Made by a program: the position numbers and the translations under genes. The notes under the pieces are model-generated. The model made no database searches. It saw only the letters and a list, made by a program, of their open reading frames with translations, and was not told where the DNA came from. DNA of 19,970 bases, taken from contig JAFQBO010000396.1 in assembly GCA_017416665.1 (NCBI GenBank), positions 1 to 19,970 of the forward strand, read 5' to 3'. The stretch's first letter is position 1. Every line of letters starts with the position of its first letter. This DNA comes from Oscillospiraceae bacterium (lineage in GTDB: Bacteria > Bacillota > Clostridia > Oscillospirales > Ruminococcaceae). Shown here piece by piece: positions 2,045 to 19,970 of the stretch.

Positions 2045-2917
2045 CAGTCTGTCGAAAAAGTCCAGCAAAAGCTGGGCTTTTTAAGTAATATGTGGTATAA
2101 TGATATGGGGTGAAAAAAGAAAAAGAAGAAAGAATGCAGATGGAAATGATATGCATGGACGAATTATTACTGGAAGATCATTTACTTCGTAAAATAGACG
2201 ACGCAGTGGATTTTAGTCGTATCTATGATTTTGTGGAGGACTTGTATTGCCATAACAACGGCAGACCAAGTATAGATCCGGTAATATTGTTTAAAATGGT
2301 GCTGATACAGCATTTATTCGGAATACCATCATTAAGAAAAACAGCCGAAGAAGTAAGAATGAACATAGCGTACAGATGGTTTTGATGATGGAAGAATTCC
2401 GGTGCTTCCATACAAAAGACCTATGGGAAGTAAAGATTTCTTCAGACCATACGAGTATGTTTATGATTATTATTATGATTGTGTTATCTGTCCTGAAAAC
2501 AATATTCTTAAATATTCCACAACAAACCGAAACGGCTACAGAGAATTTAAAAGCAATGGACTTGTATGCCAAAACTGCCCTTCAAGAAATACCTGCACCA
2601 ATAACGCAAAATGTGAAAAAACAGTGGCTAAACATATCTGGAATGATTATCTTGAAATGGCAGAAGATATTCGTCATACCCCAAAATACAAGAGATTGTA
2701 TGAAAAACGAAAAGAAACAATAGAAACGTGTATTCGCAGATGCAAAAGAAAAGTATTCAATGCGTTATACACTTTACAGAGGCTTAGCTCAGGTTACAAA
2801 TTGGGTTAGGCTTAAATTTGCTGCCATGAATCTGAAAAAATATGCAATAAGGAAGTGGAATAAGGACGGAAAGGAGCGTTTTCAACTCTGTTTTTGTCCA
2901 CTTTTTCAATTTTTCTG
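2045..2917 (+). mobile_element. Decayed, internally deleted IS1182-like element
   Basis: The left end CAGTCTGTCGAAAAAGTCC (2045-2063) matches the terminal motif of three other elements in this window. A self-terminating hairpin follows: AAAAAGTCCAGC at 2055-2066 pairs with GCTGGGCTTTTT at 2071-2082. Next come a TATAAT-like -10 (2096-2101) and then transposase remnants. A degenerate right end (ACTTTTTC at 2900-2907 and CTG at 2915-2917) lies in inverted orientation, though this boundary is uncertain. At about 870 bp it is roughly half the size of an intact IS1182-family element. Loss of the transposase middle and two frame changes show it cannot encode a working enzyme. Confidence 0.75.
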
Positions 2918-2927
2918 CTTTACTTAA
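2134..2927 (+). pseudogene. IS1182-family transposase remnant
   Basis: Frame 1 from ATG 2134 (an upstream GTG at 2110 is also possible) gives the N-terminal DUF772-type domain: DHLLRKIDDAVDFSRIYDFV, GRPSIDPVILFKMVLIQHLF, then IAYRWF and a stop at 2385. From about 2384 another frame resumes with DDGRIPVLPYKRP, continuing through YEYVYDYYYDCVICPENN, the cysteines CQNCPSRNTC, and RHIW-like KHIWNDYLEMAEDIRHT. This is the C-terminal part of the family. Near 2725 an apparent one-base insertion shifts the frame again; the third frame reads VFADAKEKYSMRYTLYRGLA and FAAMNLKKYAIRKW to a stop at 2927. Roughly half of a 450-550 residue protein, including most of the DDE catalytic core, is missing at the 2380/2384 junction. 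Non-functional. Confidence 0.85.
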
Positions 2928-2933
2928 TATTTT

Positions 2934-2966
2934 ACCCCGTATTCTTTGCAAAATACGGGGTTTTTC
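2934..2966 (+). terminator. Intrinsic terminator-like hairpin downstream of the IS remnant
   Basis: ACCCCGTATT (2934-2943) pairs perfectly with AATACGGGGT (2952-2961) around an 8-nt loop, followed by TTTTTC. It may belong to the gene interrupted or displaced when the IS inserted, or it may simply insulate the acyltransferase promoter. Confidence 0.75.
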
Positions 2967-2972
2967 TACAGG

Positions 2973-3006
2973 CTTAACTTTCTTTGTGCAAACAAAGAAA
3001 GTTAAG
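2973..3006. repeat. Perfect 15-bp inverted repeat (34-nt hairpin)
   Basis: CTTAACTTTCTTTGT (2973-2987) is the exact reverse complement of ACAAAGAAAGTTAAG (2992-3006), separated by GCAA. There is no U-run afterwards, so a plain terminator role is doubtful. The rest of the interval to the acyltransferase gene is AT-rich; it contains a TATAAT at 3106-3111 with no convincing -35. Confidence 0.75.
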
Positions 3007-3140
3007 AATAAAAGGATGGTAAATATAAATTTAACTGCGTATAAAAATTTTACACATACAAACAAAATTTTTCTGTTGCAAAAATATGAATAATATGATA
3101 TTATGTATAATGTATGATATTTTTGTTCAGGAGGAATAAA

Positions 3141-4280
3141 ATGGCAGAGGGTATTAATATAAAACCATCAAGAAATTATGGTATTGATTTGCTTCGTATG
3201 TTTGCGATGTTTCTTGTCGTTGTACTGCATGTTCTGGGACAGGGCGGAGTTCTTGGGAGTGCGGCAAAAAGTGACATAAATTACAATGCGGCATGGATTC
3301 TGGAAATAGGTGCGTACTGTGCGGTAAACTGCTATGCGCTCATTTCGGGATATGTCGGACTCAATTCAAAATTCAAGTACACAAATATTATTATGCTCTG
3401 GCTTCGTGTTTTATTTTATACAGTCGGAATAACACTTGTTTTTCAGTTTGTTATGCCGGAAGCACTCGAACCGACTCCCGACAGTACGGCACTGTATCTT
3501 ATATCTGAAAAGTGGGACAGGGCACTTTTTCCGGTAAGTGAAAAGCAGTACTGGTATTTTACGGCATATTTTCTTTGTTATTTCTTCACACCGATTCTGA
3601 ACAAGGCAGTTCAGACGATTGAACGTAAGCTTATGAAGAGAACCATTATCATGCTTGTGGCAATTATAAGTATACCGACATTGTATACGGGCGTTGATGT
3701 TTTTGGAGCAGTCAAGGGTTACAGTGCATTGTGGCTTGTGATTTTATATCTTGTGGGTGCATACATGAAAAAATACAATTCACTCAGCCATATAGGAAAA
3801 ATACAGGCTTTTGCAGGATTTGTTTCATGTGTTGCGGTTACATGGGCGGTAAAACTTTCTGTTGAGGAATTTATTCCGCAGTTCAAGAGAGCAAATATTC
3901 TTATAAGCTATACTTCACCTACTATTATTGGTACAGGAATTTTTCTGTTTGTGCTTTTTAAGAATATAAATCCGCCGGCATTCTGCTGTAAAATCATAGG
4001 ATTCTTTGCACCGCTTGCGTTTTCGGTCTATATAATTCATGTTCATCCACTTTTCTGGGAACACGTTATGAAAGGATGGTTTGCACCGATAGGAGAGCTT
4101 TCACTGCCACTTATGATAATTGCGGTGATTGGTGCATCGCTGGGACTGTATTTTGCGTGTTCTGTTGTGGATTTGATAAGACATTATCTCTTTAAGCTTT
4201 TAAGACTTCAGAAACTTGTTTTTACACTTGAAATGAAAATTGCAGATAAATTCAATAAAAAAGAAGAGGACGCACTTTAA
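3141..4280 (+). CDS. Acyltransferase family 3 membrane protein (O-acetyltransferase type)
   Basis: The product is 379 residues from ATG 3141, which has AGGAGG (3129-3134) 6 nt upstream; an in-frame ATG nine codons earlier has no such site. The N-terminus YGIDLLRMFAMFLVVVLHV carries the family's Arg-X10-His pair (Arg19, His30), with the His implicated in acyl transfer. About ten hydrophobic segments follow. The internal YWYFTAYFLCYFFTPILNK region and the late FSVYIIHVHPLFW segment are typical of Acyl_transf_3 (OafA/WecH-like) proteins. These acylate extracellular polysaccharide, peptidoglycan or small molecules using cytosolic acyl donors. The substrate cannot be told: no glycan gene cluster is adjacent. 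The tail KKEEDAL is cytosolic and its codons form half of the terminator stem. It is distinct from the second acyltransferase at 16264. Confidence 0.88.
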   Translation: MAEGINIKPSRNYGIDLLRMFAMFLVVVLHVLGQGGVLGSAAKSDINYNAAWILEIGAYCAVNCYALISGYVGLNSKFKYTNIIMLWLRVLFYTVGITLVFQFVMPEALEPTPDSTALYLISEKWDRALFPVSEKQYWYFTAYFLCYFFTPILNKAVQTIERKLMKRTIIMLVAIISIPTLYTGVDVFGAVKGYSALWLVILYLVGAYMKKYNSLSHIGKIQAFAGFVSCVAVTWAVKLSVEEFIPQFKRANILISYTSPTIIGTGIFLFVLFKNINPPAFCCKIIGFFAPLAFSVYIIHVHPLFWEHVMKGWFAPIGELSLPLMIIAVIGASLGLYFACSVVDLIRHYLFKLLRLQKLVFTLEMKIADKFNKKEEDAL

Positions 4281-4292
4281 ATGTGTGTCCTC
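4266..4292 (+). terminator. Terminator hairpin overlapping the acyltransferase stop codon
   Basis: GAGGACGCAC (4266-4275) pairs with GTGTGTCCTC (4283-4292), 10 bp with one G-T wobble; TAA (4278-4280) lies in the loop. No U-run follows. The foldback element starts at 4294, one base after the stem, which suggests that the T-tract was displaced or supplied by the element. Confidence 0.7.
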
Positions 4293-4293
4293 A

Positions 4294-4572
4294 TAGTTTG
4301 TAGAAAAAGTTTATGCTAACGGGCGAGCATTGCTCGCCCCTACTACTCTGTAACATCTAAAACTTTATAATAATGTAGGGGTCGATGCCCACATCGACCC
4401 GTTGTAAATTATATGAAAATTGAGGGCTGATGTGGGCATCAGCCCCTACAAATTAAAAAACACAGAAAATAAAATTTTAAATGTTACAAGATACTACAAA
4501 TGGCTTAAATATGTTGTTTGCATGTAGGGAGACCAGTGGTCGTCCGCTATTTTTAGGTTTTTCAACAAACTG
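4294..4572. mobile_element. 279-bp non-coding foldback (MITE-like) element
   Basis: The ends are inverted copies: TAGTTTGTAGAAAAAGT (4294-4310), and GGTTTTTCAACAAACTG at the right end (to 4572), whose complement starts CAGTTTGTTGAAAAA. Inside are four hairpins. GGGCGAGCA/TGCTCGCCC lies at 4321-4339. GGGTCGATG/CATCGACCC lies at 4379-4400. GGGCTGATG/CATCAGCCC lies at 4424-4445. A GACCA/TGGTC hairpin lies within 4527-4544. The second and third are themselves inverted copies (GTAGGGG...CCCTAC), and so are 4349-4368 and 4469-4488 (18 of 20 positions). The whole element can therefore fold as one branched hairpin. There is no ORF. It fills the space between the convergent acyltransferase and pgsA terminators. 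The termini match the IS1182-like remnant, so trans-mobilisation is likely. Confidence 0.8.
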
Positions 4573-4573
4573 A

Positions 4574-4597
4574 CCCATGCTTCATATGAAACATGGG
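4574..4597 (-). terminator. Terminator hairpin downstream of pgsA
   Basis: On the minus strand CCCATG (4597-4592) pairs with CATGGG (4579-4574), with an inner TTCATATGAA palindrome extending the stem. The next base pairs belong to the foldback element end (TCAGTTTG), so there is no clean U-run. Its position just after the pgsA stop supports the call. Confidence 0.65.
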
Positions 4598-4603
4598 CTT
4601 TAT

Positions 4604-5191
4604 TTATTTATCAGAATCAATATATTTCCAGTACCCTTTAAGGTAAACAAGTCCTGAAATAACTGTAAGTGCAACCGATAACCATATTGCAATAGTCATC
4701 AGCAGATTAAGACCAACTACAAGGTTCGGAGGCGGTTCAAATCCAAAGAAATCAAAATCACCTGTAACCGAGTAAATCAGCAGTATAAGAATAATTGCTG
4801 CCATTGTAAAGGCAGTTTTCAGCTTTCCCCAGAATCCTGCCGCAACGACAACACCCTTGTCAGCCGTTACAAGTCTTAAACCCGATACCATAAATTCTCT
4901 TGCTATGATGATGAAAAACGGTACAGCACCCATTGTCCCGTATTCTACAAACACAGCAAGTGCCGCAATTACAAGTGCTTTGTCGGCAAGCGGATCAAGA
5001 AATTTTCCGAAATCAGTTACAAGGTTGTATTTTCTTGCGATATGACCGTCAAATGCATCTGTCAGTGATGCCGCAATAAACACAAACATTGCGATTGTAA
5101 AGTTAAACGGTACAAAATCCGCATACATAAAAAACAGAAAAACCGGTATTAAAATCGCTCTTAAAACGGTCAGTTTATTTGGTAAATTCAA
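4604..5191 (-). CDS. pgsA: CDP-diacylglycerol--glycerol-3-phosphate 3-phosphatidyltransferase
   Basis: The product is 195 residues, normal for PgsA. It makes phosphatidylglycerophosphate, the first committed step of phosphatidylglycerol and cardiolipin synthesis, in the membrane. The CDP-alcohol phosphotransferase motif is complete: D45-x2-D48-G49-x2-A52-R53-x8-G62-x3-D66-x3-D70 (DAFDGHIARKYN, then GKFLDPLAD). Four to six hydrophobic segments flank it. The start appears to be TTG (5191-5189), giving the family-typical MNLPNKLTVLRAIL. GAGGTGG lies 7 nt upstream and no ATG fits. The start overlaps the rimO stop (TTGA), so translation is coupled. It is the last gene of the long minus-strand run. 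Confidence 0.94.
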   Translation of the reverse strand: MNLPNKLTVLRAILIPVFLFFMYADFVPFNFTIAMFVFIAASLTDAFDGHIARKYNLVTDFGKFLDPLADKALVIAALAVFVEYGTMGAVPFFIIIAREFMVSGLRLVTADKGVVVAAGFWGKLKTAFTMAAIILILLIYSVTGDFDFFGFEPPPNLVVGLNLLMTIAIWLSVALTVISGLVYLKGYWKYIDSDK

Positions 5192-6519
5192 CTGTCAGCC
5201 ACCTCACCAATCAAGTCATAGTCAAGAGTATCAATGATTTTTATATTGACATACTGTCCGATTTGCAGCGGATTTTCACTTGTGAAGAAAGCTTTTCCGT
5301 CAATATCAGGAGCATCTGACTTACATCTGCCAAAGTAACATTCAGCGTACTTGTCAAATCCTTCAACAACCGCCTCAAAAACCTTATCAAGGTTTTTCTC
5401 GTTGTTTTGTTCGCTGATAAGCTGCTGCTGTTCCATGATTATTTCAGCACGGTGATTTTTGATTTCTTCATCAAGCTGTCCGTCAAAGCCGGCGGCAGGA
5501 GTTCCTTCCTCCTGAGAATATGCGAAACAGCCAAGCTTGTCAAAACGTGTTTCCTTAACAAATTCTGCAAGTTCCTCAAACTGTTCGTTTGTTTCACCCG
5601 GGAAACCTGTAATAAGTGTTGTACGGAGTGTAATATCAGGAATTTTGTTTCTGATTTTATTTATAAGAGATGTTAAAAACTCTTTGTCACCCACACGGTT
5701 CATATTGTGGAGAATTTCAGCGTTGCAGTGCTGAATAGGAAGATCAAGATATTTTACTATTTTTTCTTCATTCGCCATCACATCAAGCAGTTCATCAGTG
5801 ATTCTTTCAGGATAGCAGTAAAGCACTCTTATCCACTTGAGATTTTCTATTTTGCAAAGTTTCTGTAAAAGCTCCGGAAGTGCTGATTTACCGTATAAAT
5901 CCTCGCCATAGCGTGTTGTGTCCTGAGCAATTACAATAAGCTCTGTTACGCCGTTGTCCGCAAGCCACTGTGCCTCTTTTAATACGTCTTCCATAGGAGC
6001 ACTTCTGAAACGTCCTCTTATTTCAGGGATAGCACAATAGGTGCAGCAGTTGTCACAGCCTTCTGCAATTTTAAGGTATGCAAAAAATGGAAGTGTTGAA
6101 ATGATTCTGTCGCCTGTTATTGAAAGTCTGTCTTTGCTGTCAAAGGCAACAATTCTTTTATCCTCCAGAACACTGTCTATAACATCAATAATGTCTTCCT
6201 GATTGCCGATACCGACAACAGCGTCAACTTCAGGAAACTGTTCTGCCATTTCTTCCTGATAACGTTCCGAAAGACAGCCTGTTATAATAATTTTTTTAAT
6301 TCTGCCTTCTTCTTTAAGTTTTGCAAGTTCAAGAATCGTTTCAATAGCTTCTTCCTTTGCCGACTGTATAAACCCACATGTGTTTACAACAGCAATATCG
6401 GAAAGTCCCGGTTCTGTTACAAGCTGATAGCCTTTCTGTCTGAATTTATAAAGCATTCTTTCGGAGTCAACGAGATTTTTTGAGCATCCGAGTGACACCA
6501 TACCTATTTTAACAGGCAT
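5188..6519 (-). CDS. rimO: Ribosomal protein S12 methylthiotransferase
   Basis: The product is 443 residues from ATG 6519, which has AGGAGG (6534-6529) 9 nt upstream; an ATG at 6543 would begin inside recX and places the Shine-Dalgarno within the ORF. It is a radical-SAM enzyme that methylthiolates an Asp of ribosomal protein S12. The N-terminal UPF0004 domain has its three cluster cysteines, Cys12 (MVSLGCSKN), Cys48 (VVNTCGF) and Cys82 (ITGCLSE). The radical-SAM CX3CX2C motif is Cys155/Cys159/Cys162 (GCDNCCTYC). The VDSERM stretch and YLDLPIQHCN are RimO-like rather than MiaB-like. The C-terminal 60 residues form a TRAM domain. It lies between recX (13-nt gap) and pgsA (overlap). Confidence 0.94.
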   Translation of the reverse strand: MPVKIGMVSLGCSKNLVDSERMLYKFRQKGYQLVTEPGLSDIAVVNTCGFIQSAKEEAIETILELAKLKEEGRIKKIIITGCLSERYQEEMAEQFPEVDAVVGIGNQEDIIDVIDSVLEDKRIVAFDSKDRLSITGDRIISTLPFFAYLKIAEGCDNCCTYCAIPEIRGRFRSAPMEDVLKEAQWLADNGVTELIVIAQDTTRYGEDLYGKSALPELLQKLCKIENLKWIRVLYCYPERITDELLDVMANEEKIVKYLDLPIQHCNAEILHNMNRVGDKEFLTSLINKIRNKIPDITLRTTLITGFPGETNEQFEELAEFVKETRFDKLGCFAYSQEEGTPAAGFDGQLDEEIKNHRAEIIMEQQQLISEQNNEKNLDKVFEAVVEGFDKYAECYFGRCKSDAPDIDGKAFFTSENPLQIGQYVNIKIIDTLDYDLIGEVADS

Positions 6520-6532
6520 AAGAACACGCCTC

Positions 6533-7147
6533 CTAATCTTCAATATATTCTTTTACTGCACGGTTTATATCATCAAAATCATAACCAGCCCTTGCAAGAC
6601 CGTTTTTAACTTTTGCAATGGCTTTTATGTCATCTGGGTCATGCAGATACCCGTCATATTTTTTTTCTATAAGTGCCATAAGGCGTTCTTCAAGACCATC
6701 GAGTGAATTTTCGATAGCCTCATCGGCAATTTTTCCACGGATTCCACGTTTATAAAGCTCCTGTTTAACTCTCCTCGGGCCATAAAGCTTACACTCCATG
6801 TAATTGTAAACAAGACCTTCGGCATATCGGCGATCGTTTATATATCCCTTTGCCGCCATATAATCAGCAACCTTATAGCAAATATCCTCAGGATAATTTT
6901 TTTTCAGTTTTTCAAAAAGCGAAATGTAGGAATATTCTCTTTCGTTTATCAGATACATGGCTCTGCGTGTGGCACGTCGGAGTTCTGAGGCAAATAGCAC
7001 CTTTGCAAAATCCTCACTGCTTATTTCCATATCCGCTTTAAGACTGTATTTTGTTATAATGTCCCTGTGAAGATACACTCTTTTGTTGCCGTCTGCAATG
7101 ACACAGAATGTATCTCCTTTATATTTTTCAATAGATGTTATAATCAT
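6533..7147 (-). CDS. recX: Regulatory protein RecX
   Basis: The product is 204 residues, within the Firmicute range. It contains the RecX three-helix repeats: ATRRAMYLINEREYSYISLFEKL (about 59-81), VADYMAAKGYINDRRYAEGLVYNYM (about 92-116) and YGPRRVKQELYKRGI (about 121-135). In the family RecX binds the RecA filament and inhibits or modulates recombinase activity. The gene starts 5 nt after the recA stop. I see no clear Shine-Dalgarno before ATG 7147, so it is probably translated by coupling to recA, a simple way to keep RecX below RecA. The C-terminal repeat is less conserved. Confidence 0.9.
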   Translation of the reverse strand: MIITSIEKYKGDTFCVIADGNKRVYLHRDIITKYSLKADMEISSEDFAKVLFASELRRATRRAMYLINEREYSYISLFEKLKKNYPEDICYKVADYMAAKGYINDRRYAEGLVYNYMECKLYGPRRVKQELYKRGIRGKIADEAIENSLDGLEERLMALIEKKYDGYLHDPDDIKAIAKVKNGLARAGYDFDDINRAVKEYIED

Positions 7148-7152
7148 ATGTG

Positions 7153-8349
7153 TTATTCGGCAGGAGTGAATTCTTCAAAATCTTCTTCTGCACTTGCAAT
7201 AGGATCAATGTCAAATTCATCAATTTCAGCTGTGGCATCCTGATTTTCAGCAGCATTTGCCGCAGCCTTTTCAAGCTCATCATCGCTTGTAACATTCTTT
7301 TCAACTGCCTCAAGAGCGTCCTTGTCGTTCATGATTTTTTCTTCAATTTCCTTGAGCATGTCAGGATTTTCCTTGAGGGCAATTTTAACCTTTTCACGTC
7401 CCTGACCGAGTTTGGTTTCACCATAGCTGAACCAGGAACCACTCTTTTTGATAATATCAAGCTCAACGGCAATATCAATTACCTCACTGAGTCTTGAAAT
7501 ACCTTCACCGAAAATAAGGTCAAATTCACATTCCTTGAATGGCGGAGCAACCTTGTTTTTCTTGATTTTGATTTTTGTTCTGTTACCAATCTGAACTGTG
7601 CCTTCCTTGATAGGTTCGCCCTTTCTTACATCGATAATAACAGATGAATAGAATTTTAAAGCACGTCCGCCCGGAGTTGTTTCAGGACTTCCGTACATAA
7701 CACCGATTTTTTCTCTTATCTGGTTGATGAAGATGGCAACGCAGTTTGTTTTTGACAGAAGCGGAGTCAGTTTTCTCATTGCCTGTGACATAAGCCTTGC
7801 CAGCTGACCGACATTTGAATCACCCATATTACCATCAATTTCCGCTTTTGTTGTAAGTGCCGCAACCGAGTCAAGAACGACAACGTCAATAGCACCTGAT
7901 CTTACCAGTGCTTCAACAATTTCAAGTGCTTCTTCACCGCTGCTTGGCTGTGACACGAGAAGATTGTCAACATCAACGCCGATTGCCCTTGCATATTTTG
8001 GATCAAGAGCGTGTTCAACGTCGACAAAGGCAACCTCGCCGCCCTGTCTCTGTGCTTCAGAGATAATGTGAAGTGCAACCGTTGTTTTACCCGAACTTTC
8101 AGGGCCGTAAAGCTCTACTATTCTTCCTCTCGGAACACCGCCTATACCAAGTGCCAGATCAAGACTCATTGAGCCTGTCGGAATAGAATCGACTTTCATT
8201 GTTGTGTTTGCACCAAGCTTTATAATAGCACCTTTGCCGAATGTCTTTTCAATCTGTGCGATTGCACCTGCAAGTGCCTTTTTCTTTTCTTCCTTTGTTT
8301 CAGGAAGCTGTACGGTTTTGCTTTTTTTCTTTAAATCATTCTTACCCAT
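7153..8349 (-). CDS. recA: Recombinase RecA
   Basis: The product is 398 residues from ATG 8349, which has GGAGG 7 nt upstream; a longer upstream reading would lie inside prmC. RecA forms ATP-dependent filaments on ssDNA and drives strand exchange and, where present, LexA cleavage. Walker A is GPESSGKT (82-89), the catalytic Glu is Glu112, Walker B is VVVLD (156-160), and the DNA-binding L2 loop is about 211-227 with SPETTPGG. The tail from about 340 is long, Ala/Glu/Asp-rich and very acidic, which usually tunes DNA binding. In the L1 region it reads [10 protein letters not shown], where most RecA proteins read GDSHVGLQAR. The start overlaps prmC by 8 nt. I see no LexA box or promoter of its own. 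Confidence 0.97.
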
Positions 8350-9199
8350 CTGTAATCCTCCAGGTTGAACTGCCGTAAACAACTCTTGTGACACCGCAAA
8401 GATCGTCAGCAGTAGTTATATTTGCAAAGCTGTTTTCTTTCATTATTTTAATTATATCGTTTTCCTGTCCCATGCCGATTTCATAGGCAAGAATTCCGCC
8501 TTCTTTGAGGGACTTTTTCCAGAGTTTTGTAATGTTCCTGTAAAAATCAAGTCCGTCATTTCCTCCGAAAAGTGCTTTTTTCGGTTCAAAAGTGACTTCC
8601 TTCTGAAGTTCCTTCATATCCTGTGCTGTAAGATAAGGCGGATTGCAGACGATCATGTCAATGTCTGAAAAGCACTCCGAAGTTTTTTCGGCGAGAACAT
8701 CTCCCACAATGACATTTATTTCTGCATTGTTATGTTTTTTGTTTTTATTTATATATCCGACTGCTTTGTCGGATATTTCCACAGCAGTTATATCAGCATT
8801 TTTGATATATTTTTTCAGCGTAATCGCAATACAGCCGCTTCCACTGCACAAATCAAGTATTTTCGGATTTTCGGGAAGCTTCAGATTCATTGCCGTTTCA
8901 ACAAGTGTTTCTGTATCCTGCCTTGGTATCAGAACACCATCACCGACAAAAAATTCAAGTCCGTAAAACTCCCATTTTCCCAGCAGATACTGAAGCGGTT
9001 CACCCAGACTTCTCCTGTATGCGATATTATCTGCGTTTGTCACCTGTTCCTGTGTTGCAGGTATTTTGTCAAGGAGAAGCTTCTGAAGTCTGCAACCGAA
9101 AATATGTTCGGTTATGCACATTGCCTCAAACTGAGACGATTCAATATTGTTTTTATCAAGTGTTTTCCGTAAATGAAGATAAAGCTCAGACGCCGTCAC
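8342..9199 (-). CDS. prmC: Release factor glutamine methyltransferase
   Basis: The product is about 285 residues. It methylates the GGQ glutamine of peptide-chain release factors using SAM. An N-terminal helical domain recognises the release factor. The Rossmann fold begins at [13 protein letters not shown] (about 114-126), and the catalytic NPPY motif is at about 186-189 (VCNPPYLTA). The Shine-Dalgarno AGGAGG (9212-9207) stands 7 nt from GTG 9199 and only 4 nt from another GTG at 9202, so I prefer 9199. That start overlaps the stop of the DUF1385 gene as GTGA. In many Firmicutes the DUF1385-prmC pair is followed by other genes such as prfA; here recA follows directly. Confidence 0.93.
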
Positions 9200-10116: not shown

Positions 10117-10148
10117 TTAATATACCTTTCCGTCCGATTTACGGACTG

Positions 10149-12293: not shown

Positions 12294-12313
12294 AGCCTGC
12301 TCCATTTCACGTT

Positions 12314-13612
12314 TTAAAAATTAAATTTAAATTTCATAATCAGTTCCTCCGGCGAAAGTGCGAGAGGATTTTTTTCATTTATTTTCAGGAAGAAGTGCTT
12401 TTCGCCCTTTGTTCTGATGAGCGTCCAGCTTTCATCTTCACTTATTGTCTGTTTTTCTTTTCCCGAAACAACCTTTAATGTGAAAATTTCATTTGCCGTT
12501 TCAGGGTCTTTCCCACTGCATAAAGACAGCTCATTTTCGGAAATATTCTGCTTTGCGGTTATTTTTCCGTACCATTCCTGCGGGATAAAAAATACATAGC
12601 TGTCGGTGATGCTGTAGTAGCTTTCATATTTATGTCTTAAATCTTTATTGTCGATTTCATACCAGGAGGTAAAATAAAGCGGATTTTCACTGTTTACGTC
12701 ATATCCTTCACAAAATGCCGTAACAGGAATTTCAGGTTTTCCGTCCTTGTCTATGTCCTTTGACAGATATGCCGCCGGACGCATAGTTTCAAGCTTTTCC
12801 ATATCCGGTATAAATTCACGCAGAAGATTATTTTGTGAATCAACTTTGAAAACCTCTGTTACAATATTTCCGTTTCCCGTCTGAGCATCGAGGAATATTC
12901 TGCTTTCTGCTTCTGATGTCGTATTTACCGCCACCTGACTATAATCAATATAAGCACCCTCAAGCGAAAGCTCGGAACGCTTGTATTTATCATTGTCATG
13001 AAGATGGTAGACAACTGCCGTTGCCGGCTTTGACGCTGTCTTTGATGACGCTGTAAACAGTTCCTTTGTACCGTCTGCGTTGAAATCACCTGTTTCAAAG
13101 ATTGAGTACGGTTCATTTGTCATACTTGCAGACAGTTTACCATCATGGTAATCATATATGCTTATCTTTTTTTCACTTCGGTTTATAAGACTGTATCCTG
13201 CAATAATGTTTACTTTATCAGAATCGCCCAGTCTTGTAACTTCAACCTGTTCAATTTCATTTCCGTCAGCGGCATGATCGTATACAGAACGCCACTGTGA
13301 ATCAACCGTGTCAAGAATATTTATTCTCAGAAAATCTTCCGACTTGGCTGTATTTTTTTTATAGAATACGATTGCTTCGTCCTTTTCATCTCCGTCAATA
13401 TCCTCAAGAATAAAAGCGGAGAGATTTTTTCCCGATTTGGGATATTTAAGGCTTATGTTTTCACCCGTATAGCTTTTAAGAGCATTGTAAATATCCTGCT
13501 GACGGCTGTCAAGCTTCGGAGGCATTAACAGATTGTCGATACCTGCGGTAAGCGTACAGCCCGTAAGCAAAAGAGGAAGAAATACTGCAATCAGAAAAAT
13601 TTTTGATTTCAT
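12314..13612 (-). CDS. Lipoprotein with FG-GAP/VCBS-like calcium-type repeats, co-encoded with a two-component system
   Basis: The product is 432 residues. A signal peptide (KIFLIAVFLPLLL) ends in the lipobox LTGC with Cys19, so it should be anchored on the outer membrane-facing side. Three DxDxDG-type segments stand out: DIDGDEKDE (71-79), DFNADGTKE (176-184) and DIDKDGKPE (around 290). Each is followed by a hydrophobic strand, as in integrin-like FG-GAP/VCBS beta-propeller repeats that bind calcium. I do not recognise a named family. ATG 13612 has GGAGAAGGAAAT immediately upstream. It precedes the response regulator by 20 nt and follows citrate synthase by 57 nt. A role as sensory partner or target of the two-component pair is plausible but is inference from position only. 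Confidence 0.8.
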   Translation of the reverse strand: MKSKIFLIAVFLPLLLTGCTLTAGIDNLLMPPKLDSRQQDIYNALKSYTGENISLKYPKSGKNLSAFILEDIDGDEKDEAIVFYKKNTAKSEDFLRINILDTVDSQWRSVYDHAADGNEIEQVEVTRLGDSDKVNIIAGYSLINRSEKKISIYDYHDGKLSASMTNEPYSIFETGDFNADGTKELFTASSKTASKPATAVVYHLHDNDKYKRSELSLEGAYIDYSQVAVNTTSEAESRIFLDAQTGNGNIVTEVFKVDSQNNLLREFIPDMEKLETMRPAAYLSKDIDKDGKPEIPVTAFCEGYDVNSENPLYFTSWYEIDNKDLRHKYESYYSITDSYVFFIPQEWYGKITAKQNISENELSLCSGKDPETANEIFTLKVVSGKEKQTISEDESWTLIRTKGEKHFFLKINEKNPLALSPEELIMKFKFNF

Positions 13613-13669
13613 ATTTCCTTCTCCTCTCTGTACTTTTGGATCTTTTATCTTATCTATCTGTTTTATATT

Positions 13670-15022
13670 TTATCTGTTTGAAAGCGACTTGTATTCTCTT
13701 GGCTTTGCAACTGCCTTGTAAGCAGGACGGATAATTCTGCCGCCTGCAATTTTTTCTTCAATTCTGTGTGCTGACCAGCCTACAATTCTTGAGACTGCGA
13801 AAAGAGGTGTGTAAAGCTCTTCAGGAATATGGAGCATTTTGTAAACCAGACCTGAATACATGTCAACGTTTGCACAAACTACCTTTTCGCCACCCTTCAC
13901 TTCACGGAAAAGCTCAGGTGTAAGTCTTTCAATAGTGTCAAGAAGCTTGAATTCCGCTTCGATTTCCTTACCTTCGGCAAGGCTGAATGCTTTTTTCTTG
14001 AGAATAATTGCTCTTGGATCTGAAAGTGTATAAACAGCATGACCCATACCATAAATAAGTCCTGAGCCGTCATTGGCTTCCTTTCTGAGAACCTTTCTCA
14101 TGTGGTCGGCAACCTGACCTTCATCTTCCCAGTTTTTAACGTTTGTCTTGAAGTTTTCAAGCATTTCCATAACCTTTATGTTTGCACCGCCGTGCTTAGG
14201 ACCTTTGAGTGCACCTATTGCCGAAGCATATGCTGAATATGCATCAGTGCCTGAAGATGTAAGCACACGGCAAGTGAATGCTGAGTTGTTACCGCCGCCA
14301 TGTTCAGCATGGAGCATAAGCATTGTATCGAGGAGCTGTGCCTCTTCCTTGGTAAACTGTCTGTCACGACGCATAAGTGAAAGAATAGTTTCAGCTATTG
14401 TCTGATTCTTTTCAATCGGATGCATGATCATACTTCTGTGGTCAAAATGTGACTTCTTTACCTGATATGCGTGTGTCATGATAACAGGAAGCTTTGCGAT
14501 AAGGTCACAGGCAATTCTCATTTCATTTTCTATGCTGCCGTTTTCACAGTCATCATCATATGAATAAAGAGCAAGAACACTTCTGCTGAGTTTGTTCATG
14601 ATGTTCTTTGACGGTGCTTTAAGAATCATGTCAACGACAAAATCCTTTGGCAGATTTCTTCGATCGGCGATATATTCGGTGAAATTTTTAAGAGTTTCCT
14701 GATTCGGCAGCTTTCCTGTAAGCAGAAGGAATGCAACCTCTTCAAAACCGAAACGATCGTCCTTTTCAACATTAAGTACAAGATCTCTTATATTGTAGCC
14801 TCTGTAGTACAGTTCACCCGGAATAGGTTCGATCTCACCCTCGTTGATGACATAACCATGTACATTGCAGATATTTGTAAGTCCAGCCACAACACCTGTG
14901 CTGTCTTTGTTTCTGAGGCCTCTTTTAACATCAAATTTGTCGTAAAGCTTTGAGTCAAATTTGGAATTTTCGGACAAGGCTTCACATAAAGTGTTAATAC
15001 GGGCATTATCAAAATTATTCAT
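13670..15022 (-). CDS. gltA: Citrate synthase (clostridial type)
   Basis: The product is 450 residues from ATG 15022; upstream in-frame codons extend across the promoter and cannot be coding. It condenses oxaloacetate and acetyl-CoA to citrate. The active-site residues are present: His277 in GPKHGGAN, His328 in GMGHAVYTLSDPRA and Asp387 in NVDMYSG. HAEHGGGNNSAF (about 238-249) is also typical. An N-terminal extension of about 60 residues before GYVINEGEIEPIPGELYYRGYNI matches the longer citrate synthases of clostridia. A 2-methylcitrate synthase role cannot be excluded, but no prp genes are near. AAGTGAG lies just upstream of the start. It is the first gene after a consensus promoter and probably heads the minus-strand transcript. 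Confidence 0.93.
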   Translation of the reverse strand: MNNFDNARINTLCEALSENSKFDSKLYDKFDVKRGLRNKDSTGVVAGLTNICNVHGYVINEGEIEPIPGELYYRGYNIRDLVLNVEKDDRFGFEEVAFLLLTGKLPNQETLKNFTEYIADRRNLPKDFVVDMILKAPSKNIMNKLSRSVLALYSYDDDCENGSIENEMRIACDLIAKLPVIMTHAYQVKKSHFDHRSMIMHPIEKNQTIAETILSLMRRDRQFTKEEAQLLDTMLMLHAEHGGGNNSAFTCRVLTSSGTDAYSAYASAIGALKGPKHGGANIKVMEMLENFKTNVKNWEDEGQVADHMRKVLRKEANDGSGLIYGMGHAVYTLSDPRAIILKKKAFSLAEGKEIEAEFKLLDTIERLTPELFREVKGGEKVVCANVDMYSGLVYKMLHIPEELYTPLFAVSRIVGWSAHRIEEKIAGGRIIRPAYKAVAKPREYKSLSNR

Positions 15023-15056
15023 TCTACTCACTTCCATTCTTTTATATTTACCTTTT

Positions 15057-15085
15057 ATTATAACCGATTTCAGCAAATATGTCAA
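15057..15085 (-). promoter_or_regulatory. Consensus sigma-A promoter for citrate synthase
   Basis: On the minus strand TTGACA (15085-15080) and TATAAT (15062-15057) are separated by exactly 17 bp, a perfect housekeeping promoter. It gives a leader of roughly 25-30 nt to ATG 15022. The same 100 bp must hold the promoter of the divergent SpoIID-like gene, for which I see only a weak TATAAC (15088-15093). Confidence 0.9.
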
Positions 15086-15125
15086 CTTATAACAATCAGA
15101 TTTTAAAAAATAGGAGAGGATTATT

Positions 15126-16148
15126 ATGAAATCATGTATTACAGCGGCACTTGTTTTTATTTTACTGCTTCTGACAGTTCCGTCAGCACCGCTTCTGCTG
15201 GGAAAAAATATTACGGCAGATGAAAAAAGTGACATGTCTGAAGGCACTGAACCGACGAAAACCACAACGTCTGTACAAACGGAAAAAAAACCGGCAAAGA
15301 AATATAAAACGCTGAAGGTTCTTGATGTCACTACGGGAAAAGTTGATGAAATATCGGCTTTTGACTATGTTGTCGGTGCGGTGTGTGCCGAAATGCCTGC
15401 AACCTTTGAGCAGGAGGCGTTAAAGGCACAGGCGGTTGCCGCATACACTTATGCTGTGAGACAGGCTGAAAAAGCGGAAGCTTCGCCTGACAGTGAGCTT
15501 TGCGGTGCGTATTTTTCCAATGATTCATCTGTGTATCAGGCGTACTTTACCGAAAATCAGGCAAGGCAGTATTATGGCGAAAATTATGATGAGTATATTG
15601 AAAAAATCAGAAAAGCTGTTTCAGAGGTTGAATATGAATATATGACATATGAAGATGAGCCGATTATTGCGGCTTTTCATTCACTCTCAACAGGAAAAAC
15701 GGAAACAGCAGAAAATGTCTGGGGAAGTGATATAGCTTATCTGACATCGGTTGAAAGTGAATATGACAGCAGGTCGCCGAAATATACTGAAATATACGAA
15801 TTCACAGAAAAGGAAATGAAACAGCTTCTTGAAACAGCTTTTAACGGGATTTCACTTTCTGAAAACGCTGAAGACTGGTTTGTGGATTTTCAGTACAGTG
15901 ATGCACAGACTGTTCTGACAGTTTCTGTCGGTGATATGGAAGTGACAGGACAGGAACTCAGAACGGCACTCTCACTGCGTTCTGCGGCATTTGAAGTAAG
16001 GTATGAAGACGGCTTTGAAATTACAACAAAAGGTTGCGGGCATTGTGTAGGTATGAGTCAGTACGGTGCAAATGAAATGGCGAAAACAGGCAAAAGCTAT
16101 ACGGAAATTCTTAAGCATTATTATAAGGGAGTAAAAATAAACTCTTGA
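15126..16148 (+). CDS. SpoIID/LytB-domain protein (stage II sporulation protein D-like)
   Basis: The product is 340 residues. A single N-terminal membrane segment (about 5-25) is followed by a Thr/Lys-rich linker (about 30-60) and a SpoIID domain to the C-terminus. The core AEMPATFEQEALKAQAV (about 88-104) contains Glu89, the position of the catalytic acid in SpoIID. FHSLSTGKTETAENVWG and GCGHCVGMSQYGANEMA are also diagnostic. SpoIID is a lytic transglycosylase that cuts denuded glycan strands during engulfment of the forespore. The usual Arg in the AVAARTY motif is Tyr107 here. No spoIIQ or spoIIID is adjacent, so it could be a paralogue rather than spoIID itself. AGGAGAGG precedes ATG 15126; transcribed divergently from citrate synthase. 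Confidence 0.87.
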   Translation: MKSCITAALVFILLLLTVPSAPLLLGKNITADEKSDMSEGTEPTKTTTSVQTEKKPAKKYKTLKVLDVTTGKVDEISAFDYVVGAVCAEMPATFEQEALKAQAVAAYTYAVRQAEKAEASPDSELCGAYFSNDSSVYQAYFTENQARQYYGENYDEYIEKIRKAVSEVEYEYMTYEDEPIIAAFHSLSTGKTETAENVWGSDIAYLTSVESEYDSRSPKYTEIYEFTEKEMKQLLETAFNGISLSENAEDWFVDFQYSDAQTVLTVSVGDMEVTGQELRTALSLRSAAFEVRYEDGFEITTKGCGHCVGMSQYGANEMAKTGKSYTEILKHYYKGVKINS

Positions 16149-16172
16149 TTTTTTCCATAAATATGCTATAAT
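16145..16172 (+). promoter_or_regulatory. Sigma-A promoter of the second acyltransferase gene
   Basis: TTGATT (16145-16150) and TATAAT (16167-16172) are 16 bp apart, with an extended TGC before the -10. The -35 overlaps the stop codon of the SpoIID-like gene. From CTTGATTTTTTC to ATAATATA it matches the htpG promoter at 17791 in 29 of 32 positions. Confidence 0.85.
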
Positions 16173-16181
16173 ATAATGAGG

Positions 16182-16227
16182 TTTTCTGTGACATTGATTA
16201 CTGAGCTTTCAGTGATGTTTCAGAAAA
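16182..16227 (+). promoter_or_regulatory. Long imperfect hairpin in the 5' leader of the acyltransferase mRNA
   Basis: TTTTCTG (16182-16188) pairs with CAGAAAA (16221-16227). Inside, CAT pairs with ATG, and ACTGA with TCAGT. It starts only a few bases after the expected transcription start and ends 36 nt before the ATG, leaving the ribosome site free. It may act as a 5' stabiliser or regulatory leader; it resembles no riboswitch I know. Confidence 0.5.
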
Positions 16228-16263
16228 TACAATAATTTATTTTTATGGCAAAGGAGAAAAAAT

Positions 16264-17388
16264 ATGGGTAAAACTTCCGATATGAAAGCATCCCGACGAA
16301 TATACTACATAGATCTTGCGAGGTTTATAGCGATAATTTCAATAACGCTGAATCACGCAGTAAGCCGTTCATTTGACATTTACGGCGATAATCTGGCGGA
16401 ATTCAACGAACTGCCTGTTTACATGACAATAATAAAGTGTGTTACGTATGTTTTCAGCCGAATAGGTGTACCGCTTTTTCTGATGATCTCAGGTGCTCTG
16501 ATGTTGCCGAGAGACTATACACAACCCGAAAAAATAAAGGGTTTTGTAAAAGGTAACTGGCTTAATTTGTTTATCACAACCGAAATATGGCTTGTGATAA
16601 TGTTCTGGTTCCTCAATATGACACATGGTTCCGATCTGAGAACGCATGGTCTTGGCAGAGCGTTGTTCAGCTTTGTTGAAAATCAGCTTTTTGTCAATCA
16701 GACCACGTTTCCGAGTATGTGGTATATGCCTATGATACTTTGTGTATATCTGATGATTCCGATTATTTCTGTAGCGGTAAACAAGATAGACAGGAAATAT
16801 TTTATACTGCCACTGGCTATTGCAGTTGTAAGCGGTATGATTGTACCGACATTCAATGCAGGACTTGAAGCAGCTGGTTCATATCGTTCCGTTGATTTTG
16901 CATTAAGCATTACAGATCTGTTTTCTGTATATCTTATTCCACTGGTTATGGGGTATTTTGTAAGTCAGGGTGTACTGAAAAAGCTGTCAAATATTGTTGT
17001 AATAACAGTTTCGGCAACGTCATTTATACTTGTATGTGCTTTTCAGTTCTGGATTTATACAACAGGCAGCAATTACTCAGTCAGATACGAATCGTTGGGA
17101 TTGTTAATCTGTTCTGTTTTCCTGTTTGAAGCTTTGAGAAGAATTAAAAACAGTACCGGTACGCATAAAATTGTTACTGAAATTTCGAAGATTTCATTTG
17201 CAATTTATTTTTTACATATTATCATAATGACTGTATTGCAGAAGGTACTCTATGAATTTCCGATTGATAATAAATTAATAGCATTAATTATTCTTGAGGT
17301 AGGTTCGTTCATTGGAAGCATAATAATTATTGAAATACTTAAAAAAATTCCTGTGATAAAGAAACATCTGTTTATGATAAAAGACTGA
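16264..17388 (+). CDS. Acyltransferase family 3 membrane protein, second copy
   Basis: The product is 374 residues with about ten membrane segments. The N-terminal YYIDLARFIAIISITLNHAV carries the family Arg-X10-His pair (Arg20, His31). The FPSMWYMPMILCVYLMIPI segment (about 155-173) and the late ISFAIYFLHIIIM segment fit OafA/WecH-type O-acyltransferases, which acylate glycans or other surface molecules. The C-terminus IEILKKIPVIKKHLF is basic and cytosolic. It shares fold and catalytic motif with the gene at 3141 but is clearly diverged, so the two are not recent duplicates. AAAGGAG lies about 8 nt before ATG 16264. It has its own promoter and terminator (monocistronic). The substrate is unknown. 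Confidence 0.87.
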   Translation: MGKTSDMKASRRIYYIDLARFIAIISITLNHAVSRSFDIYGDNLAEFNELPVYMTIIKCVTYVFSRIGVPLFLMISGALMLPRDYTQPEKIKGFVKGNWLNLFITTEIWLVIMFWFLNMTHGSDLRTHGLGRALFSFVENQLFVNQTTFPSMWYMPMILCVYLMIPIISVAVNKIDRKYFILPLAIAVVSGMIVPTFNAGLEAAGSYRSVDFALSITDLFSVYLIPLVMGYFVSQGVLKKLSNIVVITVSATSFILVCAFQFWIYTTGSNYSVRYESLGLLICSVFLFEALRRIKNSTGTHKIVTEISKISFAIYFLHIIIMTVLQKVLYEFPIDNKLIALIILEVGSFIGSIIIIEILKKIPVIKKHLFMIKD

Positions 17389-17400
17389 TTTTAAATTAAA

Positions 17401-17421
17401 AGAGACTGCCATGCGGTCTCT
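17401..17421 (+). terminator. Terminator hairpin, left copy of a 21-bp duplication
   Basis: AGAGACTGC (17401-17409) pairs with GCGGTCTCT (17413-17421) around CAT, with one T-G wobble. It directly follows the acyltransferase stop region. It lacks the T-run, because the non-coding element begins at 17422. An identical hairpin, with its T-run, stands at 17746. Confidence 0.8.
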
Positions 17422-17745
17422 CAGTTTGTCGAAAAAGTCTTTGGTCATAAAACTAAAAGTTTTGATCAAACTTTTTTGCTTGCATGCCTGTGGTGCAAAA
17501 GTTTGCGGTTTCTGCTCTGCATGCCGTTGGCACTCGGCAGAGCCTTTGGTTGCCGTCCGCAGACGGCGAAATACCCCATCGGAGGCGCATTTACGAGGGG
17601 TGAATTGAAAAAAACAGCCCGGTGGGCTGTTTTTTCAAGAGGGGACGCTTTGCGAGAGAAAGCGTCCCCTTGCTTTGGTCGTACTTATATTTGCCTGCCG
17701 ATTTAATCGGCATGAAATTTTAATTTAAGTTTTGTCTACAGTCTG
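17422..17745 (+). mobile_element. 324-bp non-coding MITE-like element flanked by a duplicated terminator hairpin
   Basis: The left end CAGTTTGTCGAAAAAGTC (17422-17439) and the right end GTTTTGTCTACAGTCTG (17729-17745) are imperfect inverted repeats, 12 of 16 positions. The element is hairpin-rich. GCCGTC/GACGGC lies at 17552-17567. A CAGCCC/GGGCTG hairpin with A- and T-rich arms spans 17605-17638. AGGGGACGCTTT/AAAGCGTCCCCT lies at 17640-17670. The palindrome TGCCGATT-T-AATCGGCA lies at 17696-17712. A CTCTGC/GCAGAG pair is also present around 17515-17542. There is no credible ORF. The block from 17552 to about 17616 recurs in the element starting at 19794. The ends match the IS1182-like remnant at 2045, so it is probably a non-autonomous relative. 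The 21 bp at 17401-17421 recurs exactly at 17746-17766, as expected for a target duplication. Confidence 0.82.
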
Positions 17746-17772
17746 AGAGACTGCCATGCGGTCTCTTTTTTT
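17746..17772 (+). terminator. Terminator hairpin with T-run, right copy of the duplication
   Basis: This is the same 21-nt stem-loop as at 17401, followed by seven T (17766-17772). This copy keeps the original T-tract, so the ancestral acyltransferase terminator was probably intact here before the element inserted. Confidence 0.85.
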
Positions 17773-17791
17773 ATAAAATAATAAAAAACAC

Positions 17792-17819
17792 TTGATTTTT
17801 TCTGTAAATGTGCTATAAT
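17792..17819 (+). promoter_or_regulatory. Sigma-A promoter of htpG
   Basis: TTGATT (17792-17797) and TATAAT (17814-17819) with a 16-bp spacer and an extended TGC. CIRCE begins 4 bp after the -10, so a bound repressor would cover the start point. Confidence 0.9.
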
Positions 17820-17823
17820 ATAT

Positions 17824-17850
17824 TTAGCACTCGTAAAGCGAGAGTGCTAA
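17824..17850 (+). promoter_or_regulatory. CIRCE operator (HrcA-binding site)
   Basis: TTAGCACTC (17824-17832), nine bases GTAAAGCGA, GAGTGCTAA (17842-17850): an exact match to the CIRCE consensus. HrcA represses through CIRCE at normal temperature and is inactivated on heat shock with the help of GroEL. Its place over the htpG start makes htpG a predicted HrcA-regulon member. Confidence 0.96.
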
Positions 17851-17876
17851 AATCTAAGATTATGGAGTTGAAAATA

Positions 17877-19757
17877 ATGGAAACAAAAGAATTCAAAGCC
17901 GAGTCAAGACGACTTCTTGACCTCATGATTAATTCGATTTACACTCATAAGGAAATCTTTTTAAGAGAGCTTATTTCAAATGCCAGTGACGCCATTGACA
18001 AGCTCTATTTTAAATCACTTACCGATGATAAGGTAGGCATAAAAAAAGACGATTTTGCCATTAAAATCGACGTTGACAAGAATGCAAGAACAATCACTAT
18101 AACCGATAACGGTATCGGTATGACAGCAGATGAACTTGAAGAACATCTTGGTACTATCGCAAACAGTGGTTCACTGAAATTCAAGACTGACAACAAGCTT
18201 GATGAAGATGTGGATATTATCGGACAGTTCGGTGTCGGTTTCTATTCGGCATTTATGGTTGCAAAGGAAGTTGTGGTAAAGAGTAAGGCTTACGGCTCTG
18301 ATACAGCCTTTGAATGGGTTTCAGAAGGTACAGACGGCTATCGCATCGGCGAATGTGACAAGGACAGTGTCGGTACAGAAATCATCTTAAAGCTTAAAGA
18401 TAATACAGAAGATGAAAGCTATGATGAATTCCTTGAACAGTACAGAATTCAGTCACTCATAAAGAAGTATTCTGATTATATCCGCTTCCCTATTAAGATG
18501 GACATGCAGAAAAGCCGTCTTAAAGAAGGTACTGAAAACGAATATGAAGATTATACAGAAACAGAAACTCTTAACAGCATGATTCCTATCTGGAGAAAGA
18601 ACAAGAGCGAACTCAAGGACGAAGACTACAACAGCTTCTACAAGGAAAAGTTCATGGACTTTACAGATCCTGTTACACATATTCACGCAAAAACAGAAGG
18701 TACTGCCACATATAATGCACTTTTATATATTCCGTCAAAAGCACCTTATGACTACTACTCAAAGGATTATGAAAAGGGTCTACAGCTTTACTCAAGCGGT
18801 GTACTGATTATGGATAAGTGTGCAGATCTGCTTCCTGATCATTTCAGTTTCGTAAAGGGACTTGTTGATTCAGAGGATCTTTCACTCAATATTTCCCGAG
18901 AAATGCTTCAGCATGACAGACAGCTCAAGCTTATCGCAAAAAGTCTTGAAAGAACTATTAAAAATGAGCTTAACAAAATGCTTAAAAATGACAGAGAAAA
19001 ATATGAAAACTTCTATAAAGCGTTTGGTTTACAGCTTAAATTCGGCGTATACAACAACTATGGCATGAACAAAGATGCAGTAAAAGATCTGCTTATGTTC
19101 TATTCTTCAACAGAAAAGAAACTTGTTACTCTTGAAGAATACGTTTCAAGAATGCCGGAAGAACAGAAGTATATTTACTATGCATGCGGCGAAACAGTTG
19201 AAAAGATCGATATTCTCCCACAGACTGAACTTGTTAAGGACAAAGGTTACGAAATTCTTTACTTTACAGACAGTGTTGATGAGTTTGCTATCAAGATGCT
19301 CATGAGTTATAACGAAAAGGAATTCAAGTCTGTATCAGCAGGAGATCTTGACATAGATACTCCTGAGGAAAAGGAAGAACTTACTGCAAAGGAAGAAGAA
19401 GCAAAGGACTTGTTCAAGTTCATGCAGGAAAAGCTTGATGGAAAGGTTAAATCCGTAAAGCTTTCAAAGAGACTTAAATCACACCCTGTATGCCTTTCAA
19501 GTGAAGGTGAAGTTTCGGTTGAAATGGAAAAAATCCTTAATGCTATGCCGAACGATCAGAAGGTTTCAGCGTCAAAGGTTCTTGAAATCAATCCTGATCA
19601 CCCTGTTTTTGAAACACTTAAAAAGCTCCACACAACAGACGATGAAAAGCTTGAAAAGTATAGCAGACTGCTCTATAATCAGGCACTTCTTATTGAAGGT
19701 ATGCCGGTAGAAAACCCGGTTGAATTCTCAAATCTTGTATGTGAACTTATGGTATAA
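17877..19757 (+). CDS. htpG: Molecular chaperone HtpG (bacterial Hsp90)
   Basis: The product is 626 residues from ATG 17877, the usual HtpG length. GGAG (17864-17867) lies 9 nt upstream; an in-frame ATG at 17808 is inside the promoter and upstream of CIRCE, so it cannot be the start. The GHKL ATPase domain has Glu31, Asn35 and Asp38 in [13 protein letters not shown], Asp77 in TDNGIGM, and the lid region [14 protein letters not shown]. The middle domain includes the SREMLQ-type loop ([14 protein letters not shown]). The C-terminal dimerisation domain ends in [17 protein letters not shown]. It is a cytosolic ATP-dependent homodimeric chaperone for stress-damaged clients. The gene is monocistronic, under a sigma-A promoter with CIRCE, and is closed by a perfect terminator hairpin. 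Confidence 0.97.
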
Positions 19758-19767
19758 TATATACAAC

Positions 19768-19793
19768 AACCCCGCACAGTTTGGTGCGGGGTT
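19768..19793 (+). terminator. Terminator hairpin of htpG, followed at once by an element end
   Basis: AACCCCGCAC (19768-19777) pairs perfectly with GTGCGGGGTT (19784-19793). The T-run expected next is replaced by the terminal motif CAGCTTGTCGAAAAAG at 19794. Confidence 0.85.
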
Positions 19794-19970
19794 CAGCTTG
19801 TCGAAAAAGTTCCTTTTGAAAAGATTTTTCAAAATTAAAAGTTTCGGTCAAGCCTTTTCAAAGGCTTGCGGGGTCGAGGGGCGGAGTCACTCGTCGCCGT
19901 CCGCAGACGGCGAAATTCCTGGCCTAAGAGGCGCATTTACGAGGGGTGAATTGAAAAACAGCCCACTGGG
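19794..19970 (+). mobile_element. MITE-like non-coding element, left part (runs off the window)
   Basis: The left end CAGCTTGTCGAAAAAGTTC (19794-19812) belongs to the same terminal family as 2045, 4294 and 17422. Inside are CAAGCCTTT/AAAGGCTTG (19849-19868) and CGCCGTC/GACGGCG (19895-19912). A 30-bp block at 19929-19958 is identical to 17583-17612. The CAGCCC hairpin arm that follows is cut by the window end. Between the shared blocks the two elements differ, so they are diverged members of one family and not a recent copy. Confidence 0.78.

Follow-up and report, generated by a model that had tools for sequence, protein, structure and literature searches.

Elements and hairpins in the window

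The stretch of DNA analysed here (the window) comprises positions 1 to 19,970 of contig JAFQBO010000396.1 from an Oscillospiraceae bacterium (assembly GCA_017416665.1, referred to below as genome G000). It carries a degenerate element of the IS1182 insertion sequence (IS) family, the relic, together with small non-autonomous elements, including miniature inverted-repeat transposable elements (MITEs), whose ends adjoin stem-loops resembling intrinsic terminators. One MITE is complete and stands between two copies of the same hairpin.

17401-17421, + strand: target duplication copy 1, the whole stem-loop AGAGACTGCCATGCGGTCTCT, its T-tract no longer attached
17422-17745, + strand: complete MITE of 324 bp, left end CAGTTTGTCGAAAAAGT, right end TTTTGTCTACAGTCTG, interior hairpin-rich (z -6.6)
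17746-17766, + strand: target duplication copy 2, a stem-loop identical to 17401-17421, then the T-tract

An earlier note on this DNA had described six element ends, each beside a stem-loop, and had taken the flanking hairpins to be unrelated to one another. All six hairpins fold well, at gaps of 3, 1, 1, 0, 0 and 0 nt from the element ends, but one pair contradicts the supposed lack of relation, 17401-17421 and 17746-17766 being one and the same 21-nt sequence, and because the hairpins had been taken as unrelated the duplication of a whole stem-loop was missed. The latter copy is the sole terminator-like site detected in 17300-17900. A seventh element end was also overlooked, namely the right end of the relic, GGGGTTTTTCTACAGGCT at 2957-2974, which has a hairpin of its own. 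The other elements and hairpins in the window are these:

2022-2041, + strand: terminator-like stem-loop, 3 nt from the left end of the IS1182 relic (-13.5 kcal/mol)
2045-2974, + strand: degenerate IS1182-family element (relic), 930 bp, left inverted repeat 2045-2061, right inverted repeat 2957-2974
2110-2385, + strand: transposase remnant, N-terminal part, DUF772 (IS1182 profile positions 3-89)
2402-2809, + strand: transposase remnant, C-terminal part, DDE_Tnp_1_6 (IS1182 profile positions 340-454)
2934-2961, + strand: internal stem-loop, possibly the relic's own terminator, with a T-tract overlapping the relic's right inverted repeat
2973-3006, no strand assigned: stem-loop adjoining the relic's right end (-15.3 kcal/mol for 2974-3005)
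4266-4292, + strand: terminator-like stem-loop, 1 nt from the left end of element B (-16.7 kcal/mol)
4294-4572, + strand: non-autonomous element B, 279 bp, with palindromic interior repeats and convergent genes either side
4574-4597, - strand: stem-loop at the right end of element B, unlike its left hairpin (-14.2 kcal/mol)
19768-19793, + strand: terminator-like stem-loop 3' of htpG, 0 nt from the left end of a MITE (-18.6 kcal/mol)
19794-19970, + strand: MITE, left part only, as the window ends here

The hairpin at the right end of the relic is perfect, with arms at 2973-2987 and 2992-3006, and is unlike the relic's left hairpin. Within element B, the segment 4321-4450 holds palindromic repeats of the GGGCGAGCATTGCTCGCCC and GTAGGGG...CGATGCCCACATCG types, and a hairpin similar to these repeats, GGGCGACCATTGGTCGCCC, itself serves as a target at three loci (L010, L017 and L031; L-numbers denote element loci, or rows, scored across genomes, plasmids and phages).

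The element ends adjoin hairpins of many sequences

The terminal motif, a 17-mer, has five matches in the window at up to three mismatches, compared with 0.12 expected, and none of 200 shuffled sequences attained five. CAGTTTGTCGAAAAAGT forms the left end in a family of IS1182-type elements, and the end at 17745, a diverged right-end form (CAGACTGTAG...), is not among the five matches. Across the genus of the window, the element ends are inverted repeats, CAGnnTGTCGAAAAAGT ... GGTTTTTCTACAGnCTG. Copies of the motif with at most one mismatch were counted in G000 (416 contigs, 1.83 Mb, 64% complete) and in ten further genomes of the same genus, which include that of a sister species (G009, likewise incomplete). 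There are 44 in G000 and 56 in G009, where a reversed-pattern control found 0 and 1, respectively, and 0-2 in each of the other nine.

The stretches around these sites were then rescanned at up to two mismatches, which gave 113 motif matches; the 111 with at least 40 nt of flank were scored and the two with less than 40 nt were dropped. A stem-loop scoring at least 16 and ending no more than 3 nt outside the motif was found at 47/50 sites in G000 and 52/54 in G009 (together 99/104), and at 6/7 in the other genomes, where one element is counted from both ends. The same kind of structure occurs at 8.3% of 2460 control positions lying 15-90 nt downstream of open reading frames (ORFs), at 5.2% of 3951 intergenic control positions, and on the inner side of only 10/107 motifs. 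This genome-wide comparison with controls had been suggested in the earlier note, and its outcome bears out the association seen in the window. The adjoining hairpins have many different sequences across copies; the target is a terminator-like stem-loop of whatever sequence, picked by its structure. On crude ORF calls (at least 70 amino acids), which underlie the tandem, convergent and divergent gene contexts given here, the targets concentrate at gene 3' ends, and the orientation of the elements relative to tandem genes is unbiased (5 versus 10 MITE rows, 8 versus 8 IS rows). One copy, L033 (G000:C273), is nested, the element standing at the hairpin AAACAGCCCAATGGGCTGTTT within another copy of the element.

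The whole stem-loop is the target-site duplication

After exclusion of L001, L002 and L042 (duplicates of other loci) and L039 (a false right end), the same whole hairpin is present on both sides in 57/76 complete element rows. These represent 55 distinct cases, since L097 is a single element counted from both ends and L133 and L135 are identical. The repeats are palindromic and 18-36 bp long (median 25), with uninterrupted stems of median 10 bp and loops mostly of 3-4 nt, and the two copies are in direct orientation in 55/57 rows and ambiguous in the other 2. In 47/57 the two terminal bases of the repeat pair with one another and are followed by at least four further pairs inward when G-T pairs are allowed (43/57 with Watson-Crick pairs only), and the other 10 pass this pairing test once up to 2 nt are trimmed from each side. 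Random windows of equal lengths pass in 0.9% of 400,000 draws. What is duplicated at the target site is the entire terminator stem-loop and, with one full copy on each side, the length of the duplication tracks the size of the hairpin. MITEs share this arrangement, their complete copies being 279-370 bp long and lacking a transposase ORF, with ends and duplications as in the rest of the family, the ends matching those of the relic and of its IS relatives. At L295 the two hairpin copies differ by an inversion of the loop, one loop being the reverse complement of the other.

Insertion might instead be approximately random, with only those copies that lie at terminators surviving selection, and dense genomes would be expected to favour intergenic copies in any case. 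Selection is nevertheless unable to set joins 0-3 nt from a stem, or to match the duplicated segment to the hairpin as closely as the 47/57 exact dyads require, and we consider this explanation very improbable.

Empty sites hold a single hairpin

Related records provide several sites with and without the element. For an IS1182 copy on a Listeria plasmid, the joined flanks with one hairpin (400 nt) match five plasmid records at 100%, and for Streptococcus phage Javan90 the joined flanks with one hairpin match Javan87 at 100%. The joined flanks of an Enterococcus plasmid copy match 11 plasmid records at 94-97%, and one Enterococcus record aligned base by base (L260 against L306) has a single hairpin at the empty site; the loop of the hairpin in the occupied plasmid is the reverse complement of the empty-site loop, and the alignment contains a 6-nt gap about 150-170 nt from the hairpin. 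These comparisons indicate that the insertion itself creates the hairpin duplication, empty sites holding one copy.

Orthologous sites within the genus are supportive only, and weaker than those on plasmids and phages, because the hairpin sequences have diverged and the neighbouring genes differ in places. Several same-genus relatives have a hairpin after htpG without an adjoining element, and G009 has an element at the next hairpin; the site of L065 is a hairpin without the element in the genomes G008, G002 and G001. In the window an acyltransferase gene (16264-17388) sits between the gene at 15126-16148 and htpG; G009 has no acyltransferase gene at that place and htpG is directly next.

The near-constant company of motif and hairpin (99/104) could also arise if the hairpins were part of the element, or the motif part of the terminators. 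However, the hairpin sequences vary from copy to copy, the empty sites consist of one hairpin with neither motif nor element, and the hairpins after htpG in relatives and at the L065 site in three genomes stand alone, so that we give this idea almost no credence. A further alternative is suggested by IS1272 of Staphylococcus, which belongs to the same family by name and for which the accessible text of two papers describes 'inverted repeat-replacing' transposition with deletion of the target stem-loop (PMC5678879, PMC4923244). The present elements might likewise replace their hairpin, those now flanking them being secondary. For the elements that duplicate, this is contradicted by the identical hairpins on both sides in 57/76 rows and by the single-hairpin empty sites, and it appears extremely unlikely. 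We conclude that IS1182-family ISs and their small derivatives very probably insert at stem-loops in such a way that each insertion is flanked on both sides by the entire stem-loop.

Transposases and the distribution of hairpin duplication

Three intact relatives score 420.7, 407.9 and 416.6 bits against the NCBIfam IS1182 profile (NF033551, cut-off 270), whereas the two pieces of the relic, being fragments, score 101.6 and 92.1 bits, below the cut-off. Neither remnant covers profile positions 90-339, and the relic retains both ends with no intact transposase gene; its DDE domain is recognised as Pfam DDE_Tnp_1_6. The earlier proposal of an IS1182-type element that chooses stem-loops by structure and not sequence, and has non-autonomous derivatives, is upheld. 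Complete IS1182 relatives are 1299-1767 bp long, with matching ends and a single transposase gene between the inverted repeats; intact ones include the element of Claveliimonas bilis c-25 (L120) and the L128 type. Residues D145, D272 and E399 are invariant in 21/21 transposase sequences and are putatively catalytic. For a predicted model of the L128 transposase (mean predicted local distance difference test score 77.6), the best structural matches are the Tn5 and piggyBac transposases, followed by integrase cores, in VIA-align results that cover only the candidates supplied by Foldseek. Foldseek alone gave no match to this model at E 0.001 or better, and a sequence search of solved structures found none.

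With the N-terminal relic fragment as the query, the best 80 of 146 loci were kept as relatives. The left end is recognised in 66 of them, and a hairpin adjoins it in 59/63 with a readable flank. Full-length IS1182 relatives in other Clostridia, on plasmids and on phages show whole-hairpin duplication too. From 72 plasmid and phage matches listed we chose 15, one of which proved to be IS1272; of the remaining 14 copies, nine have a whole-hairpin repeat, one has two different hairpins (L258), one has no left hairpin (L261), one is cut by the start of its record (L254), and in two (L257 and L263) the element ends were not resolved. The IS relatives and the MITEs have similar ends, so the small derivatives probably owe their movement to the same kind of transposase acting in trans. 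Many relatives (L108-L181) also carry a short internal stem-loop and T-tract just inside the left end (for example CCAGC...GCTGGGCTTTTT), which probably shields the transposase gene against read-through.

A further sample of 30 loci was drawn by the IS1182 profile alone. Its duplicator transposase group (n = 12) contains 8 whole-hairpin repeats, 1 case of two different hairpins and 3 not resolved; among the repeats is L284, whose frame is broken and which, too short for the tree described below, was counted by its BLAST grouping. The IS1272-like branch has whole-hairpin repeats in 0/10, the ends of L281 and L298 being uncertain. Three loci have ends like GAGACCACTG, with 9-bp repeats in two, and a fourth group (n = 4) comprises L291 with a 31-bp whole-hairpin repeat, one locus with a 4-bp repeat and two not resolved. 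The fragment L287, also too short for the tree, was assigned to no group. Within the IS1182-profile set, L288 and L294 have ends like GAGACCACTGAAAAAGT and 9-bp, partly palindromic repeats, GGACGGTTC and GGACCGTCC.

In a maximum-likelihood tree of 73 rows, every labelled duplicator but L291 falls in one 55-row clade (support 100/98), separate from the IS1272 branch; IS1272 forms a long branch that drew a long-branch warning, the midpoint root serves for drawing only, and the deeper order is unsure. IS1272 proteins from phage records, which lie on that other branch, share 28-29% identity with an intact member of the duplicator clade over 43% of the latter's length.

A possible route to hairpin duplication

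For DDE transposases, a constant length of the target duplication is usually a characteristic feature. Duplication of a whole stem-loop could be understood if the transposase acted on a terminator hairpin extruded as a four-way junction. Joining at both 5' feet of the junction would lead to the whole stem-loop being copied, gap repair then copying each arm and, because the feet would be close together whatever the arm length, an enzyme class with a normally fixed duplication length could yield duplications of variable length. The far copy of the hairpin would retain the T-tract, so that termination would survive and insertions would be mild, which would fit the 44 and 56 left-end copies in G000 and G009. 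The far copy, with its T-tract kept, still scores as a terminator, and termination is on that account probably kept further downstream; altered transcript ends after insertion, which the earlier note had foreseen, are plausible. On balance we lean towards the more general proposal that in a large clade of IS1182 DDE transposases, split from the hairpin-deleting branch, duplications of 18-36 bp and of any sequence are set by structure through the extruded terminator junction.

The hairpin might instead be recognised as a single-stranded or transcription-linked structure, such as a lagging-strand hairpin, an R-loop or a paused polymerase with its nascent RNA, and be cut at both feet. Other mobile elements are known to use single-stranded structures as targets, and the targets here concentrate at gene 3' ends, where transcription terminates. 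Such a route would, however, require joining at mirror positions on both strands to give a symmetric duplication. Moreover, some targets lie inside other repeats, as in the nested insertion of L033 into AAACAGCCCAATGGGCTGTTT, and there is no tandem-gene orientation bias of the kind that transcription coupling might show. We regard this route as rather unlikely.

Several observations weigh against insertion at an extruded terminator, or against its generality. The cruciform mechanism is itself inferred. There is no clear hairpin at 5/104 G000 and G009 sites, among which L094 may be a chance motif match and L009 may be a bulged stem. Full-length IS copies are flanked by divergent genes in 3/31 rows, suggesting that not all targets need be terminators. 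The joins carry some base preference, 49/57 duplications starting with A and 49/57 ending with T, and Watson-Crick pairing extends 1-7 bp past the duplication in 36/57, so that the joins are often within the A/T-rich base of the stem and not at its outermost foot. The left stem of L078 is weak, L114 lacks a left hairpin and has a repeat of 8 bp, and 2/76 rows look like diverged copies of a single hairpin. As to the full-length IS1182 element with the same ends that the earlier note proposed to look for, open-frame relatives exist elsewhere, but neither G000 nor the ten same-genus genomes yielded an intact transposase with these ends.

The largest group of misfits is formed by the 15/76 complete rows, including element B of the window, that have two different hairpins. 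These are likely to reflect recombination between two copies, chimeric assembly, or a deletion or inversion that extends to another hairpin. The right hairpin of L068 is the left hairpin beside another copy, L081, and the two-hairpin state is also present in a circular Enterococcus plasmid record (NZ_CP015884.1; L258 and L299-L302), in which two IS1182 copies have similar right-flank hairpins and different left flanks, hinting at rearrangement between copies. On the other side, when a second place was looked for in the incomplete genome G009 for two further hairpins of such copies, only the known places were found.

Relation to known elements and significance

Hairpin targeting in the IS1182 family is already known. 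In the accessible text on IS1272 and TnSha1, most targets are stem-loops that are not related in sequence, and RNA-seq identifies several as terminators (PMC4923244). IS1272 thus resembles the present elements in family name, in a stem-loop target of varied sequence and in inserting at or in the hairpin stem; it differs in that, as described there, it deletes the stem-loop without duplication, whereas the present clade duplicates the whole of it. Whole stem-loop duplication is drawn as a possible pathway (pathway b) in PMC5678879, the available parts of which give no example. MITEPye1 and ISPye18 of Paracoccus yeei (IS1182; PMC11578231) are similar in comprising a small non-autonomous element with IS1182-type ends, intergenic and folding into stem-loops, but have 4-bp direct repeats and, in the portions available, no hairpin target is described. 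ISPse1 of Paracoccus belongs to the same family and differs by a 4-bp duplication in a table of the paper concerned (PMC3281130).

A group IIC intron was rejected as a candidate, no Rfam family being present in the window at gathering score. Group IIC introns insert beside intrinsic terminators, as the elements here do, but unlike these are RNA-based retroelements with neither inverted repeats nor target duplication. Searches of an open-access literature collection turned up no account of IS1182 elements that duplicate whole hairpins, nor of a distinct clade that does so regularly and has given rise to amplified MITEs. Reviews list long variable direct repeats for IS1182, and parts of this picture may be known to specialists.

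Because the length of the duplication is set by the secondary structure of the target, the targeting of cruciforms can be put to the test, and the family, with one branch that deletes the hairpin and another that duplicates it, allows the two outcomes to be compared. In annotation, an insertion is marked by two identical terminators spaced about 280-370 bp or, where a transposase gene lies between them, about 1.5 kb. For the elements themselves, this is a way of inserting beside genes with a terminator left intact. If true, the proposed mechanism would mean that a pathway which work on IS1272 gives only as a drawing does occur in nature, and would explain how MITEs can accumulate at dozens of terminators with the terminators preserved.

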